Source: Candidatus Gastranaerophilales bacterium (GTDB lineage Bacteria > Cyanobacteriota > Vampirovibrionia > Gastranaerophilales > Gastranaerophilaceae). Taken from it: DNA of 64,000 nucleotides. The DNA lies in assembly GCA_944325635.1 (NCBI GenBank), contig CALVBD010000003.1, positions 1 through 64,000 on the forward strand. The letters run 5' to 3'. The translations under genes and the position numbers were made by a program. Below are positions 7,440-60,484 of this stretch, piece after piece. The notes beneath the pieces are model-generated. The model was not told the DNA's origin. It ran no database searches and worked only from the letters and a program-made list of their open reading frames with translations. Every line of letters begins with the position of its first letter. Position 1 is the stretch's first letter.

Positions 7440-7926
7440 TATAAATTTTGCTCACAACCATTATAACCTAAAAAAGAGAAATTTCAATTTGTAAAAGGAT
7501 TTATGTCAGAGAGATAATTTAAGATAATAAGACTTTCCCCTTGTAAATGGGAGTAAGTGGGATTGGCAGCATGTCATTGCGAGCGTTAGCGAAGCAATCC
7601 AGCCTTTTTTAATGTGAAGAGTGAATGGTGAAGGGTTCAACAATAATTAGTTTCATCACGCTTCAAACATCACTCTTCACGTTTCCAAAAAGCTGGATTC
7701 TTTCGGGCTTCGCCCTCAGAATGACACAACATTTTCCTTAGGAACTTTTTACCGCCACCTTATACTATCCCTCTCCCGCAGGGAGAGGGAAGAAAACGAA
7801 AACCCTCCGTTGCTTACGCACGACCTCCCTTTACAAGGGAGGTAATAACTAATCATTGTTGAACTACTCACCACTCACCATTCACTTAATTGCAACTCAT
7901 TTTTTGCTAAACTATTCAGGCAATTT
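7440..7926. repeat. Gene-free stretch with dispersed repeat modules
   Basis: No gene seen. 7573-7612 is module R1 (cattgcgagcgttagcgaagcaatccagcc). 7613-7655 is module R2 heptamers. 7686-7732 is an R1 variant (aagctggattctttcgggcttcgccctcagaatgac). 7765-7846 is module R3, with paired ccctctccc/gggagaggg and cctccctt/aagggagg arms. 7848-7900 is R2 in the opposite direction. The final 20 nt lead into the end of the next minus-strand gene. Confidence 0.75.
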
Positions 7927-10923: not shown

Positions 10924-10952
10924 AAAGCGGGATTTATAAATCCCGCTTTTTT
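10922..10952. terminator. Bidirectional intrinsic terminator
   Basis: A perfect hairpin, AAAAAGCGGGATTTA with its complement ending in TTTTTT, sits between the convergent aminopeptidase gene and prepilin A. It can work for both strands. Confidence 0.9.
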
Positions 10953-11755
10953 AGTAAGCAATTTTACCTTCTGCAAGCACCTTTGCCGTACAGGTAGTTC
11001 CGCTGAATTGTGTAGTGCTTTGTGGATTACAGTAATCATTACTGTAAGTTCCTGCCGGAATAAGTCCTTTATTAGTCAGTACAAACGCAAAAATGTCGCG
11101 TCCTACAGTATTAGGTCTTTTGTCACCGTTTGCATCTACCCAGAAAACATAAGCTGATTTGTTATAATTTACACCAAACATGTTAGTCACATAACTGGAA
11201 CCGTGATCATCAATAGATATATTAGTACCGTCTACAAGTTTAAATATAAAAATCCCATCTCCTATTCCTGTTGAATCTCGTCCCACATTTGCGCCTCCGA
11301 GATTTTTGGTAATACCCTTATGCCAGCAGCCTGCGGTATCTTCGCATTCCTTCAAAACTTTTAATTCTGGCTTTATGGCATTGTATACATTTTTCATATT
11401 AGCAGGAGTACCTCCTTCTTCAGGATTTCCGTCCGAAATATCAATGTTCCATGTTTCAAAAAAACCGAGTTTAACCTGTGATTTGACTAATGCCTGTGCG
11501 AGTATGGAGTAATTTTTCTTTAAACTTGCAATAATTGCGGCATCGTTTTGTTTTTGTATAAGTGTCGGAAGTGTTAGTGCCGCAACAATTCCGATAATTC
11601 CTAATGTAATTAAAACCTCTGCTAATGTAAAAGCGTTCCCAATGAATAAAGATTTTTCAAAAATCTTGCACTTTTTATTTTGTATATTGTCGTGACAGAG
11701 CTGTGATTTAGGCTGCCCCCCCCCCCGTAAATCCAGTCATAGCAACAGTTTTCAT
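10951..11755 (-). CDS. Prepilin-like protein A, out of frame across an 11-nt G tract
   Basis: The ATG at 11753-11755 follows a strong AGGAGG and encodes MKTVAMTGFT then Gly codons from a G tract (11716-11726). With 11 G the frame stops at once (TAA). With 10 or 13 G it would read through a 20-30 residue linker into GNAFTLAEVLITLGIIGIVAA, the type IV prepilin/pseudopilin N-terminus, and a globular tail ending ...AEGKIAY. The tail contains DANGDKRPNTVGRDIFAF, a motif shared with the other prepilins here. No ATG, GTG or TTG lies in the pilin frame between the tract and FTLAEV; the first in-frame Met is at 11395-11397, beyond the pilin helix. The linker holds a small hairpin (AAGATTTTT/AAAAATCTT). 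Confidence 0.7.
11716..11726 (-). repeat. 11-bp poly-G tract in prepilin A leader
   Basis: Eleven consecutive C on the plus strand. Length 10 or 13 joins leader and pilin frames; 11 does not. It is the candidate switch for gene 10951-11755. Confidence 0.85.
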
Positions 11756-24613: not shown

Positions 24614-25371
24614 CTACCACGGATAATCGTCTTTAAACTGCCAGCCGTCATATACAAATACTGCAAAACATGGATTAGGTACGCCATCTCCATAGGTAAA
24701 TCTTTTACATAAATCCAAGGCTTCTGCCCTTGTTTCTGCATCCTTGATTGTAAATAATCTTGGTATCGCAAGATGCTTTTGGCGCTCCCAATATAATTCA
24801 GCAACATCAAAAACATCTTTACCAAGTACATTCGGCGGCTTTTCACAATTTAAATCAGCCATTAATACTACAAACTGATTGTTGGACCATAGCTTTATAC
24901 AGATACCTTCTACACTATTAATTCTAGTTTGATTAACAGCATGTGTTGTATCCTTCATATTTGTATCACTGCCGTTTAAATTAGTAATCTTATACTTACC
25001 AATAGTATTCTTGACATTTTTAGACATTTTCAAGTATCGTGCGTAATATCTATCATAAAAAGTATTAACATCTATTTCTTGCAGCAAAATACCATCCTCA
25101 GCACTTGTTATCGGATAATCCCAGTATTCTGAAGGACCATAATCATTTTCGGCACGAAGCGTTGCATTTGTTAATAATGAATATATCTTCTTTAATTTTG
25201 TAATTGTAACAGCTTTTTGATATTTATTGATTACCGTTGGCAGTGTCATCGCTGCCACGATCCCTATTATACCCAGTGTAATCAAAACTTCAGCAAGCGT
25301 AAACCCCCGTCTATTACCGGCAGAAGGACAGCCCCCCCCCCCGTAAATTCAGTCATATCAAGCGTTTTTAT
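24614..25371 (-). CDS. Prepilin-like protein B, out of frame across an 11-nt G tract, ATA at the expected start
   Basis: The shared leader cassette is present (AAAACGCTTGATATGACTGA type) but the codon that is ATG in copies A, C and D is ATA here (25369-25371), 7 nt after GAGG. The next in-frame ATG is at 25354-25356. After 11 G the frame runs to a TGA inside the FTLAEV codons. With 9 or 12 G it would read CPSAGNRRGFTLAEVLITLG and then the 220-aa pilin, ending WQFKDDYPW. The tail has DLNCEKPPNVLGKDVFDV, the motif shared by all prepilins here. The pilin frame itself is intact. It may be a silent copy. Confidence 0.65.
25332..25342 (-). repeat. 11-bp poly-G tract in prepilin B leader
   Basis: Eleven C on the plus strand. 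Lengths 9 or 12 would join the leader and pilin frames. Confidence 0.85.
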
Positions 25372-33113: not shown

Positions 33114-34050
33114 TTACTTATATATTTCATAAAGCATTTGAGAGGTTGAAACGCCGCCTTTGTCAGTAATCTGGCAGCCTCCTGGTTGAAGTTTTAATGC
33201 ACCGCTTTTATGTTTGTAAACCATAAACGGGAACAAATCATACCCCCACTTGTTAGGTCTTTTCATTCCATTGACATCAAGAGCAAAAAGTTTATCTGAG
33301 TACCATAAAATTATAGTCCCGTCTACAAGATCCCAAACTTCTCTATCGTTATGTATAGGAGATTCCCTCCAGCCTGAATAGCCTGATGTTGCAACATTTG
33401 CTGCATAATCATCATCCGTATCATTTGATTCTTTATAGATAGTGTCATTCCCTTTATATTCAGGAATACAACCCTGTTCCAGAGCATTCCCCTCGCAAAT
33501 CTTTGCAATCTTATAAGTCTTCTTTAATGTCTTTTTTAATATTGCACAATCCGAAGTTTGATTTGTCGGATTAACATATTCACCGTATTTAATACAATTT
33601 CCCTGCTCATCTCTTTCCAAACACGGTGCCCCATAATTATCCCAGCCATAATAGCACTGAGGAGGAAATCCTAATACTGCCTCTGCCATTTTATAGGCGT
33701 TTGAGGCTGTATTATATGATTTTTTAAATTGTTCTTTTATAACCTGTTTTTGATAGTTTTGAACAAGCGCGGGCAAAGTCATTGCCGCAACAATTCCAAT
33801 AATGCCTAATGTAATTAATACCTCAGCTAATGTAAAACCGAATTTTGGGTAGTGCGCCGCGTCACATTCTGCCGAACAAAATGATTGAGTATCATTTTGT
33901 GAGAGGCCAGACCCAGCACGTCTGGTCGAGCCAGACGTTACTCCGGCCCCGTTCCCGCCATCTGCGGGGCGAGCCCCAATAATTCGGGCCAATAGCTTTA
34001 AACTACCAAGCCCCCCACCCCGTAAATCCAGTCATATCAACAGTTTTCAT
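33114..34050 (-). CDS. Prepilin-like protein C, leader out of frame across an interrupted G tract
   Basis: ATG at 34048-34050, 7-8 nt after GGAGGA, encodes MKTVDMTGFT followed by the tract GGGGTGGGGGG (11 nt, 34011-34021). As read, the frame ends at TAG after TGWGAW. With 10 or 13 nt it would continue LGSLKLLARIIGARPADGG... through a palindromic linker to YPKFGFTLAEVLITLGIIG. The pilin frame is open up to a TTG at 33992, which could start translation without the leader, but no ribosome-binding site precedes it. The tail has LDVNGMKRPNKWGYDLFPF. The linker (33841-34005) is nearly the same as in prepilin D plus a 39-bp in-frame addition. Confidence 0.7.
33829..34021 (-). repeat. Palindromic linker and G tract of prepilin C
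   Basis: Tract ccccccacccc at 34011-34021. 33911-34005 matches 41205-41299 of prepilin D with about two mismatches. Inverted pairs inside include cccgaattattgggg-type arms, ccccgc...gcgggg arms and gtctgg...ccagac. A hairpin acaaaatgat/atcattttgt (33877-33899) is present only in this copy. Confidence 0.75.
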
Positions 34051-36686: not shown

Positions 36687-37655
36687 AGCGTGAGATAGTA
36701 AACAACACTTATTATTGTTGAACACTTCACCCTTCACTCATCACGTGTTAAAAGGCTGGATTGCTTCGTCGCTTTGCTCCTCGCAATGACTTTTTTACCC
36801 CTCTCCCCAGTGCGGGATACAAAGGGAGCAGACGAGGTAACGAGTCTTGCGACCCTGTATGCCTTGTGCTGAGGGTGGCACGTAAGTGCCGGGTGAGGGG
36901 GGTATTAGAGAAAAACCTCCGGCGCTAACGCGCCACCTCCCTGATAAAGGGAGGCAAAAAGACTAGTCGGTTTGGCATAACTGCCAACTAAGATACTCAT
37001 TATTGTTGAACTCTTCACACTTCACACTTCACTTTTAAAAAGGCTGGATTGCTTCGGCTAAAGCCTCGCAATGACTTTTTTACTCCTCTCCCCAGTGCGG
37101 GATACAAAGGGAGCAGACGAGGTAACGAGTCTTGCGACCCTGTATGCCTTGTGCTGAGGGTGGCACGTAAGTGCCAGAGGGTTTTCATGCGAGCGTGTGC
37201 GCTAGCACGATAGCGAGCATATAAGGTTGAAGGCTCCGCCTTCAACTACTTCCGTTTGATCCCGCGGCGCGCAGCGACGCTGGAAACTTTTGCGTGTTTT
37301 TCTTTTTCGGTTCACTTTTTCTTTTTGCATCGCCAAAAAAGAAAAAGTGAACATACTGAAAAAGTGATAAGCTTCTATTTGTAATATTACCCCTCACCCG
37401 GGACTTCGTCCCACCCTCTCCCGCAAGGGGAGAGGGTATATAATTTATACCTCCCTTGTAAATGGATGTGGACTAGTCGGTTGGGCATACCTGCCCAACT
37501 AAGATACTCATTATTGTTGAACTCTTCACACTTCACTTTTAAAAAAGCAGGGCGAAGGAATTTAACTCAATAAAAAAGTATCATTAATCAAAAACATAAG
37601 GATTATGAGGATACGTTTTTTGAAAAATGATACTTTTTACTCTGCTAAATTAAGC
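36687..37655. repeat. Gene-free 970-bp block of ordered repeat modules
   Basis: Modules in order: R2 36690-36742, R1 36746-36790, R5 36792-36901, R3 36903-36960, R4 36965-36992, R2 36995-37032, R1 37036-37080, R5 37081-37175, a small hairpin gttgaaggctccgccttcaac near 37213-37233, a strong hairpin ttcactttttctttttgc...aaaaagaaaaagtgaa about 37311-37351, R3 37385-37440, R4 37475-37500, R2 37503-37545. At 37573-37638 a 13-bp perfect inverted repeat (aaaaagtatcatt/aatgatacttttt) with a nested stem may terminate the next minus-strand gene. The short frames here are not genes. Confidence 0.75.
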
Positions 37656-39253: not shown

Positions 39254-40106
39254 AATCTTTATCCTCTACACTACTTTAGAAAAACACACTTTTGCATTTT
39301 TCTCATCATTCACGTGTTTACTAGAGTATAACTAATTCAATGATATATTAACTCATCCAAATAAATTATTTTGCTACTATGTTAATAAATATTTACATCT
39401 AATCTATTGCTGCCGCGTTTCAGCCGCTCATCTCAGTTTAAAAATGAATGGGGATGCGTGAATAGGGCTTTTCCACCCTCTCCCGTTGGGAGAGGGTGGG
39501 CACGTAGTGCAGGGTGAGGGGGTATAAGTGAGAAGTGAATGGTGAATAGTGAAGAGTTCTCTTTTATTTCCTCTCCATTAGAGGGGGATACTTAATCCAC
39601 TCTCCACTTGCGGGATACAAAGGGCACAGACGAGGCATCGAGTCTTGCGACCCTATATGCGTCGTGCTTGAGGGACTGAGGTTTTCTTTTTCCCTCTCCC
39701 TACAGGAGAGGGGCAGGGAGAGGGGGCGGGAATTAAGTGAGAAGGGAGGAGAGGCTAGAAAACCCACCGGCGCATACGCGCCACATCCCTTACAAAGGGA
39801 GGCAAAAAGACTGGTCGGTTTGGCACATCTGCCCAACTAAGATACTTACTATTGTTGAACTCTTCACACTTCACTTTTTACCCATCACGTGGTAAAAGGC
39901 TGGATTGCTTCGTCGCTTTGCTCCTCGCAATGACTTTTTTTACCCCTCTCCCCAGTGCGGGATACAAAGGGAGCAGACGAGGTAACGAGTCTTGCGACCC
40001 TGTATGCCTTGTGCTGAGGGTGGCACGTAGTGCCGGGTGAGGGGTATTAGAGAAAACCCTCCGGCGTTTACACACCACTTCCCTTAAAATGATTGGCATA
40101 ATACAC
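39254..40106. repeat. Gene-free block of repeat modules before rpmB
   Basis: 39254-39470 shows no repeat. 39473-39525 R3; 39527-39560 R2; 39600-39672 a diverged R5 (gcgggatacaaagggcacagacgaggcatcgag type); 39690-39735 and 39760-39802 R3; 39815-39842 R4; 39845-39892 R2; 39893-39940 R1; 39941-40043 R5; 40050-40090 R3. The stretch 39893-40043 is almost identical to 36746-36895. Open frames here are repeat shadows. Confidence 0.75.
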
Positions 40107-40458: not shown

Positions 40459-41344
40459 CTAACACTTTGTCTTACCGTTCCAAGAGAGATTATTGCAGTG
40501 TAGATAATCCATATTTTCATTGTAGATTACCCAGGCAGTACAACCGTAACCATATCCTGCACCTGATGAATTAACCTTGCAGTTTTCTTCAAAAGGACGA
40601 TAGGTTTCGACAGAAGTACCAAACGGAATGATTCCGGTCTTTGTAAAATAAAATACAAAAATATCTTTTCCAATGGTATTCGGCTCCTTTGAGCCAGTTA
40701 AATCAACAAAAAATTCCCCGCACACATTCTTTAAAGCACCGCTGCCATAATTTGTAGTACATGCTGAACTGTATATCCAGGCACCTGAGATTAGAGTGCC
40801 GTCTGCGAGTATCATTCTGGTATTAGCTTTTGAACCGTTCCATGTACCGTTCAATGCATATACCATCCATTCCCGAGCATCACAATCTTCATCATAATAA
40901 CAGTGTTTAATGACCTTTAAATAAGGAGTAATGTTTATCAAAAAAGGATCTTTCCCGCTTTGACTTTCTGAATTCAGCTGAAATCCCCAATTTTCCGGAC
41001 TGCCGTTGTCTTTTATAGCATTCATATAGGCTTGAGAAATAATGGAATAAATTTTCTTCAATTTTGTAACAGTAACTTTTTCCTGTTGTTTTTGGATTAT
41101 CGTCGGCAAAGTCATAGCAGCCACAATTCCGATAATACCAAGGGTAATTAAGACCTCTGCCAATGTAAAACCGAATTTTGGGTAGTGCGCCGTGTCACGA
41201 AGTGACCCAGCACGTCTGGTCGAGCCGGACGTTACTCCGGCCCCGTTCCCGCCATCTGCGGGGCGGGCCCCAATAATTCGGGCCAATAGCTTTAAACTAG
41301 ATTGCCCCCCCCCCCGCAAATTCAGTCATAGCAATACTTTTCAT
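40459..41344 (-). CDS. Prepilin-like protein D, leader out of frame across an 11-nt G tract
   Basis: ATG at 41342-41344 follows AGGAGG and encodes MKSIAMTEFA plus Gly codons from eleven G (41305-41315). The leader frame then stops at TAG. With 10 or 13 G it would read QSSLKLLARIIGARPADGG..., the same palindromic linker as prepilin C, then YPKFGFTLAEVLITLGIIG. The pilin frame is open back to a TTG at 41319 overlapping the tract, without a ribosome-binding site. The 240-aa tail has several Cys and the shared VDLTGSKEPNTIGKDIFVF motif, and is otherwise unlike C. This suggests shared leaders joined to different pilin bodies. Confidence 0.7.
41173..41315 (-). repeat. Palindromic linker and poly-G tract of prepilin D
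   Basis: Eleven C at 41305-41315. 41205-41299 is the near-identical counterpart of 33911-34005. At the point where C carries 45 nt, D has only gaagtg, making a gtcac-ga-agtgac palindrome; the difference is 39 nt, or 13 codons. Confidence 0.75.
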
Positions 41345-59667: not shown

Positions 59668-59701
59668 ATCTATATAATGAGTTGAATATATGGAGATAAT
59701 T

Positions 59702-60484
59702 ATGCTTACTAAAACAATAAATGATTATAGAAAGTTGAAATCCCAATTTCCCAAAGTGGGCAAAGCTGCAGCCTCCCTTGATAAGGGAGGTGGCACAGGT
59801 GTGCCAGAGGGTTTTTCACTACATTCTGCAGATAACCGCAAAGCAGCGTTTACACTTGCAGAAGTTCTTATCACCCTTGGAATAATCGGAATAGTGGCAG
59901 CAATGACACTGCCGACCCTTACGGCTAAAACAAGAAAAGCCGAAGCAACGGCCAGAATAAAAAAATTCTATTCTGCAATGCATCAGGCAATAATCATGTC
60001 GGAAATGAATAACGGTTCCTGCAAAGAATGGCAGTATGAAACACTCAATGATTATGAAAACCCAGATAGCAGCGGACAAAGTTACGAAATATCAGAAGCA
60101 TTTAATAAACAATATCTTATCCCTTACCTGAAAATAACAAGCTCTGAGGAAAGAGAATGGATTACATCTACAAACCAAAAACTAAAAGGCTACGCTCTAA
60201 CTTTTGCCGACGGCTCTGTGATGAATTCAAAAGTCGGCAGCTGCATAGATATATCATTTGATGTTAACGGAGATAAAAAACCAAACCAAAAAGGCTACAA
60301 CCAATTTATATTTTTAATCTGCAAAGGCAATCAAACAATAAGAAAACACTGTTTTACAACATACAAACCTGAAAATAATCGGGAAGATAATTTACAAAAT
60401 TGCAAAAGGAGCCCATATTATTGCAGTGCTTTATTAGAATGGGATAATTGGGAATTTAAAGATGATTATCCATATAAACTATAA
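59702..60484 (+). CDS. Prepilin-like protein E with repeat-derived leader, in frame
   Basis: 260 aa from the ATG at 59702, with GGAGAT upstream. Unlike copies A-D there is no G tract and the frame is whole. The unusually long leader (about 50 residues) includes ASLDKGGGTGVPEGFS, encoded by an R3-type palindromic repeat (59770-59815), before KAAFTLAEVLITLGIIG. The tail has FDVNGDKKPNQKGYNQFIF, the motif common to all prepilins here, and ends WEFKDDYPYKL, close to the end of prepilin B (WQFKDDYPW). Prepilin peptidase would cut before the Phe. Probably an exported minor pilin or pseudopilin. Confidence 0.85.
   Translation: MLTKTINDYRKLKSQFPKVGKAAASLDKGGGTGVPEGFSLHSADNRKAAFTLAEVLITLGIIGIVAAMTLPTLTAKTRKAEATARIKKFYSAMHQAIIMSEMNNGSCKEWQYETLNDYENPDSSGQSYEISEAFNKQYLIPYLKITSSEEREWITSTNQKLKGYALTFADGSVMNSKVGSCIDISFDVNGDKKPNQKGYNQFIFLICKGNQTIRKHCFTTYKPENNREDNLQNCKRSPYYCSALLEWDNWEFKDDYPYKL
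59770..59815 (+). repeat. R3-type palindrome inside prepilin E leader
   Basis: gcctcccttgataagggaggtggcacaggtgtgccagagggtttt-type sequence, matching intergenic copies at 24501-24545 and 36903-36960, read here in frame. Confidence 0.7.

Follow-up and report, generated by a model that had tools for sequence, protein, structure and literature searches.

The poly-G runs in the leaders of many FTLAEV prepilin genes of a Gastranaerophilales bacterium are, with a probability that we put at about 0.8, slipped-strand contingency (phase-variation) cassettes. This reading comes from a 64,000-nucleotide stretch of DNA (the window), from the rest of its genome and from related genomes, and by the sequence features tested the poly-G prepilin genes would belong to the simple-sequence contingency loci. 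The proposed cassette would begin with a Shine-Dalgarno (SD) sequence and a start codon, with a run of 9-15 G some 20-100 nt further on; next would come stops for the wrong frames, in many cases a CUCC element complementary to the gene's own SD sequence (an anti-SD element), and finally the cleavage site [G/A]^FTLAEV. Gain or loss of a G shifts the start codon into or out of the prepilin frame, and in the majority of copies the two frames do not agree. Individual cells would switch each prepilin stochastically through slippage during replication, and the population would show changing subsets of a large repertoire, starting from a default-OFF state. Apart from the switch, the sequence of the leader would be free to vary because prepilin peptidase removes it.

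Identity of the FTLAEV proteins

By cleavage motif and N-terminal helix, the FTLAEV proteins are predicted to be type IV prepilins, which may build pili, pseudopili or other filaments. In an alignment of 60 proteins, positions F1, T2, L3, A4, E5 and V6 of the class III cleavage motif [G/A]^FTLAEV were invariant, and a hydrophobic stretch was present. The structural model of one of the proteins encoded in the window, prepilin D (pLDDT 91), has a 53-residue N-terminal helix (residues 3-55) and a beta-rich head. Its five best structural matches with VIA-align were pilins or pilus-like proteins, including FimA (Z 4.7), PilE and PAK, all of them weak matches with Z below 5, and a Foldseek search against the PDB gave no significant match. 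With the mature parts of prepilins A-E as queries, the Pfam N_methyl profile scored 13-15.5 bits against a cut-off of 21.2; these queries began at F1, and the first profile positions were missing. Mature E matched DUF6613 just above the cut-off. The genome also encodes a prepilin peptidase (PF01478) and PilB-type ATPases (PF00437), both over cut-off.

Poly-G leaders across the genome

In the genome that contains the window (G000; 2.0 Mb in 13 contigs), the motif FTLAEVLI occurs in 85 genes, and a variant of it, FTLSEV or FTLAET, in at least two others, about 87 in all. Among the 85 FTLAEVLI genes, 38 have a pure run of 8 to 15 G, mostly exactly G11, that lies 3' of a strong SD sequence with its start codon and 5' of the cleavage site; with two FTLSEV/FTLAET genes included, about 40 of the 87 prepilin genes have a leader G run. 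Counted across the genome, runs of 8 or more G number 56, and 40 of these are located 5' of prepilins. The typical poly-G leader reads AAAGGAGGATAAAAGT ATG AAAACTGTTGCTATGACTGGATTTAC GGGGGGGGGGG C. Gene callers misplace the starts of these genes or clip them, and TTG-start open reading frames such as 'MARIIGARP...' are out-of-phase read-throughs rather than true N-termini.

An earlier note on this DNA had described prepilin leaders as unusually long. This holds for the poly-G prepilins, whose leaders have a median of about 29 residues (range 23-76), and does not hold for the tract-less prepilins, with a median of 5 (1-49). Leaders are long because of the tract module, with prepilin E as an exception. 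Support was found for the note's alternative suggestion, a separate role for the long leaders: they are long where there are a poly-G frame switch, conserved wrong-frame stops and an SD-complementary element.

Prepilins A to D of the window

The window contains four prepilin genes with an intact or altered tract, all on the reverse strand. G11 tracts, which the earlier note had not mentioned, are present in A, B and D; three such tracts in the window compare with none in 100 shuffles. In prepilin A (mature part from FTLAEV to the stop, 10951-11631), the ATG at 11753-11755 follows AAAAGGAGGATAAAAGT and the frame reads MKTVAMTGFTGGGAA before ending at TAA (11708-11710), and the G11 tract at 11716-11726 is out of frame (OFF). 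Prepilin D (mature part, 40459-41169, with the predicted pilin-like fold) has the same layout, with an ATG at 41342-41344 after AAGGAGGAAAAT, an OFF G11 tract at 41305-41315, and a frame that reads MKSIAMTEFAGGGAI and ends at TAG (41297-41299). Prepilin C (mature part, 33114-33836) has an interrupted tract, GGGGTGGGGGG, at 34011-34021 and is locked out of frame. In all three of these genes, the ATG frame misses FTLAEV and ends a few codons past the 11-base tract, and a TGA a short way 5' of the tract blocks the frame of FTLAEV. Prepilin B has its tract at 25332-25342 and an intact body (mature part, 24614-25303); it looks degenerate because ATA (25369-25371) stands where its paralogues have the ATG start. 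Within the window, A and D look switchable, C is locked out of frame, and B has lost its start codon.

A GC-rich insert in the leader of D (41171-41286, reverse strand) is common only to C (33838-33992), and no further copy was found in the genome, which indicates a duplicated leader and not a mobile family. The C and D leaders are 90% identical over 152 nt and the mature proteins 35% identical, which indicates that one prepilin gene received its leader from another by copying or exchange.

Reading frame and tract-length variation

In the window's genome, the ATG frame was out of frame with FTLAEV in 35 of 37 scorable poly-G genes. We assembled a family-wide set of 236 poly-G prepilin genes from about 70 genomes or loci. 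Tract lengths in this set, taken from consensus assemblies in which short-read homopolymers may be off by one, were 9 (20 genes), 10 (88), 11 (92), 12 (26), 13 (7), 14 (1) and 15 (2). Only 39 of the 236 genes were in frame compared with one third expected, with a nominal p of 1e-8 that is indicative only, being uncorrected for kinship. The in-frame share was 18/41 in genome G042, 5/18 in G093, 2/15 in G022 and 1/18 in G090.

Tract length also varied between closely similar copies. We compared 22 pairs of copies that belong to the same genome and have flanks at least 92% identical; these are paralogues or assembled alleles and not isolates. Tract length differed in 12 of the pairs, some with a flip of frame. 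Two loci that are 99% identical across 121 flanking bases, L296 and L307, have G12 (OFF) and G11 (ON), respectively, and the tandem pair at L104 has G12 and G10. The shift needed to reach the prepilin frame was of opposite sign in different genomes: there was one base too many in G000 and one too few in G090 and G022. In G090, all 18 genes would come into frame at the same length class despite three flank-length combinations modulo 3, an outcome that none of 5000 permutations gave. Selection thus seems to maintain the distance, and the OFF genes seem to be in use. This permutation was informative in G000 and G090, and uninformative in G022, G042, G093 and DVIU, where flank lengths hardly vary. 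Missing mismatch repair was rejected as a cause, as MutS is present in the genome. The presence of MutS counts somewhat against the phase-variation reading, although tracts in MutS-proficient species still switch.

Two other accounts of the tracts have to be weighed against phase variation. The G run could be a site of ribosomal or transcriptional slippage, so that a fixed fraction of product is shifted and all of the genes are expressed at a low level. Tract lengths are clustered more tightly than free slippage would suggest (G11 in 28 of 37 genes in G000; G10 in 17 of 18 in G090), and this near-uniformity within genomes, nearly always one base from the in-frame length, speaks for such recoding; a G run might also pair with the 16S anti-SD and stall ribosomes. 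However, recoding would have to act in opposite directions in G000 and in G090 and G022, in-frame and out-of-frame copies coexist within G042 and G093, and near-identical copies differ in tract length. We therefore consider recoding unlikely as the main function of the tracts, although some slippage in transcription or translation may accompany DNA switching at a low level. The tracts do not fit the narrower category of a programmed frameshifting site, with one fixed direction of shift and no in-frame alleles: both directions occur, and 39/236 genes are in frame. The poly-G genes could instead be mostly dead OFF pseudogenes in decay, as the lost start codon of B, the interrupted and locked tract of C and a few truncated bodies might suggest. 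Against this, bodies of at least 150 amino acids are present in 34 of 38 poly-G prepilins, as many as among the others (39/47), and although flank lengths vary, the genes retain their stops in the wrong frames and a common in-frame length class. General decay is thus very improbable, more so than recoding.

Wrong-frame stops and an SD-complementary element

In 156 of 207 genes, each of the two wrong frames ran into a stop after the tract and before FTLAEV, compared with 49 ± 5 when the leaders were shuffled with the right frame kept open. These stops were located at a median of 10 nt past the tract. Many leaders also had CUCC, or an extended form of it, about 13 nt past the tract, and this element pairs with the gene's own SD sequence. 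SD:anti-SD stems of at least 6 bp were found in 34% of the poly-G leaders, compared with 4% of shuffled leaders, 16% of leaders swapped between genomes, and 3% of the genome's own 36 prepilins without a tract. The base adjoining the core covaries, GGAGC occurring with GCTCC and GGAGA with TCTCC: there was a match in 42 of 67 cases versus 20.8 ± 3.5 by permutation, and in 26 of 48 versus 13.0 ± 2.8 after within-genome repeats had been collapsed. The element occupies all three frames relative to the ON frame, and is thus not simply a conserved amino-acid motif. In folding calculations, the SD core had a mean probability of 0.26 of pairing with this part of the leader, compared with 0.08 when that part was shuffled. 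Pairing differed by lineage, being high in G093 (0.88) and no higher than the control in G022, and the poly-G leaders of G042 had no anti-SD element. The element is present in a minority of genes only, and clear SD pairing in folding is limited to some lineages.

These features point to how the OFF state might be tightened. In the OFF state, the ribosome would leave at a stop before the anti-SD element, which could fold back and close the SD sequence as a translational latch; in the ON state, translating ribosomes would keep the SD sequence open. We tentatively propose a two-layer switch, in which the poly-G frame switch, the conserved OFF stops and the anti-SD element turn a one-base slip into a tight translational latch, carried as a movable 5' module by about half of the ~87 prepilins and giving an uncultured gut lineage a default-OFF combinatorial pilus coat. 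This fuller proposal is considerably more doubtful than phase variation itself, and we regard it as having somewhat worse than even odds. Because of the SD/anti-SD element, the idea that an RNA latch acts on a DNA slippage switch can be tested directly.

Prepilin E and palindromes in leaders

Prepilin E (59690-60484, forward strand; FTLAEVLI at 59849) has no G tract. Its probable ATG is at 59702, after GGAG, giving a leader of 49 residues that is the longest among the prepilins without a tract and that contains an interspersed repeat, R3. This double-hairpin repeat (CCTCCCTTgATAAGGGAGG followed by TGGCACAGGTGTGCCA; 59771-59816, forward strand) lies in frame within the leader. The palindrome CCTCCCTTGATAAGGGAGG that the earlier note had seen in the E leader is indeed present, at 59772-59790 (0.02 chance matches expected from shuffled windows), and the second hairpin, TGGCACAGGTGTGCCA, follows directly. 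R3 is about 45 bp long and has 41 copies in the genome with 77-92% identity, E itself aside; palindromes related to it are found in the window at 7824, 24502, 36936 and 39784. By position, the copy in E is the only one of 41 in an FTLAEVLI leader, the others being elsewhere. We conclude that the palindrome in E got there incidentally, through insertion of an interspersed repeat that is common in the genome, and that E is an unswitched prepilin. Within E, R3 (59783-59803) brings AAGGGAGG to 10 nt before a GTG at 59801 that is in frame; if translation started at this GTG instead, as it might, the leader would have 16 residues.

The earlier note had proposed that leaders, being weakly constrained, are landing zones that collect mobile palindromes. 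The repeat in E agrees with this, as does an extra hairpin segment in C, which D is without. The 9-bp palindrome reported in the A leader is likewise real (AAGATTTTT/AAAAATCTT, 11649-11667, reverse strand), with a centre of 1 nt only. Of the nested palindromes described for C and D, the C hairpin (ACAAAATGAtactcaaTCATTTTGT) is real; the insert common to C and D is the duplicated leader, with no other copy in the genome. We surveyed inverted repeats in the 52 leaders that were long enough, using as controls length-matched random pieces from stretches of the same genome around the matches. Arms of at least 8 were found in 4 of the 52 leaders, compared with 3.0 ± 1.5 for the random pieces. The survey thus showed longer leaders in the poly-G class and no excess of inverted repeats, and by the note's own test the landing-zone idea fails. 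Three of the four leaders with inverted repeats happen to be in this window, which accounts for the pattern noticed there. Together with the single leader copy among 41 and the lack of further copies of the C/D insert, this leaves the landing-zone explanation with hardly any plausibility, the least of the explanations considered. As a known likeness, Rickettsia palindromic elements are palindromic repeats read in frame inside coding sequence; the repeat in the E leader resembles them and differs in being one case among 41 copies. A classification of R3 as a family inserted in many open reading frames was also considered for the prepilin leaders, the only frames surveyed, and 1 of 41 copies was in one.

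Elsewhere in the window, the segments at 36722-37540 and 39577-40101 are near-duplicated blocks 2.8 kb apart in which the interspersed intergenic repeat families D1, D4, D6, D7 and D10 are clustered.

Distribution and modularity of the cassette

Of the 146 genomes of the order, 38 had the poly-G prepilin arrangement, an undercount since the pattern limited the gap to 14-44 nt. All 38 belong to the same family as the window, in which the scan counted 9 of 40 genera, and there were no matches in 22 genomes of other families. A scan of named genomes gave at least 114 stretches with the arrangement; the matches listed include Gastranaerophilales, Melainabacteria, 'Cyanobacteria bacterium SIG30', Candidatus Scatousia, unspecific names, and one Fusobacterium sp. 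CAG:439. When prepilins were labelled for the tract on a tree of 73 from the window's genome, the label had to change 20 times; well-supported branches force at least 11 of these changes, and the mean for shuffled labels is 24.7. The tract thus behaves like a 5' module that is often gained, lost or exchanged. There also seems to be a strand bias among poly-G prepilin genes in some genomes (12 forward and 0 reverse in G079; 3 forward and 14 reverse in G090, counted by the orientation of the contigs as given).

Relation to known contingency loci

The kind of mechanism is known from Neisseria Opa and PilC and from Bifidobacterium pili. The Opa family has CTTCT repeats in the signal-peptide region (PMC5953494). 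Like the prepilins, it is a multigene surface family in which each copy is independently switched by a repeat tract in the leader-coding region; it differs in having pentamer repeats, up to ~12 genes and outer-membrane barrels as products, in contrast to poly-G, ~40 genes per genome, and type IV prepilins with a class III leader. Pathogenic Neisseria have on average 15-18 poly-G tracts per genome, and pilC is among the poly-G contingency genes (PMC5953494). It shares with the present genes an intragenic poly-G tract, ON/OFF switching by frame, and a part in type IV pilus biology. However, pilC is one or two adhesin/assembly genes, whereas here there are ~40 copies of pilin-like subunits, with wrong-frame stops and an SD-complementary element. 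In Bifidobacterium breve, experiments showed that slippage during replication, at a G tract inside the gene, governs expression of a sortase-dependent pilus (PMC9187656). That organism is also a gut commensal with a G-tract pilus switch, and differs in that two sortase pilus loci, of an unrelated pilus type, are involved. Homopolymeric tracts near 5' ends, mainly short poly-A/T, lead to early termination when out of frame (PMC2831843); they resemble the present tracts in being near the start, and the accessible portion of that paper describes no paired anti-SD.

A literature search for phase variation in Gastranaerophilales found none described, and a search joining slipped-strand mispairing, Shine-Dalgarno and leader peptides found none. 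Measured against the literature searched, four things appear to be new: the lineage, how many pilin-like genes are involved, the modularity of the leader, and the pairing of stops with an anti-SD element. If the phase-variation reading is correct, this 2-Mb genome, with ~40 switchable prepilins, would have one of the larger contingency repertoires made up of a single family. A gut relative of the cyanobacteria may then vary its displayed pilus proteins by random slippage, and a varied surface would be the reason why gut Gastranaerophilales-type genomes keep many FTLAEV proteins.

G tracts in other genes and double cleavage motifs

Tracts of G10-G17 were also found in non-prepilin genes of the same genome: L225 (C1:691937), L228 (C5:55723), L220 (C1:29971 and 30947) and L221 (G17, C1:99926). 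These comprise RgpF-like and Stealth-like surface-sugar genes, one tandem pair, and one signal-peptide protein. The RgpF-like rhamnan synthesis protein has its own ATG-G11 leader, and the Stealth-type phosphotransferase has G12. Surface-sugar genes are typical contingency genes, and the non-prepilin genes with G10-G17 are probably further phase-variable genes.

Among the leaders without a G tract, those of L022, L050 and L068 contain, 5' of the true FTLAEV, a second FTLAE followed by a near-identical DATH(A/V)DM(F/S)KGSRKSA. The arrangement looks like the product of recombination at FTLAE between the 5' ends of two prepilin genes. A similar double motif is present in L072.
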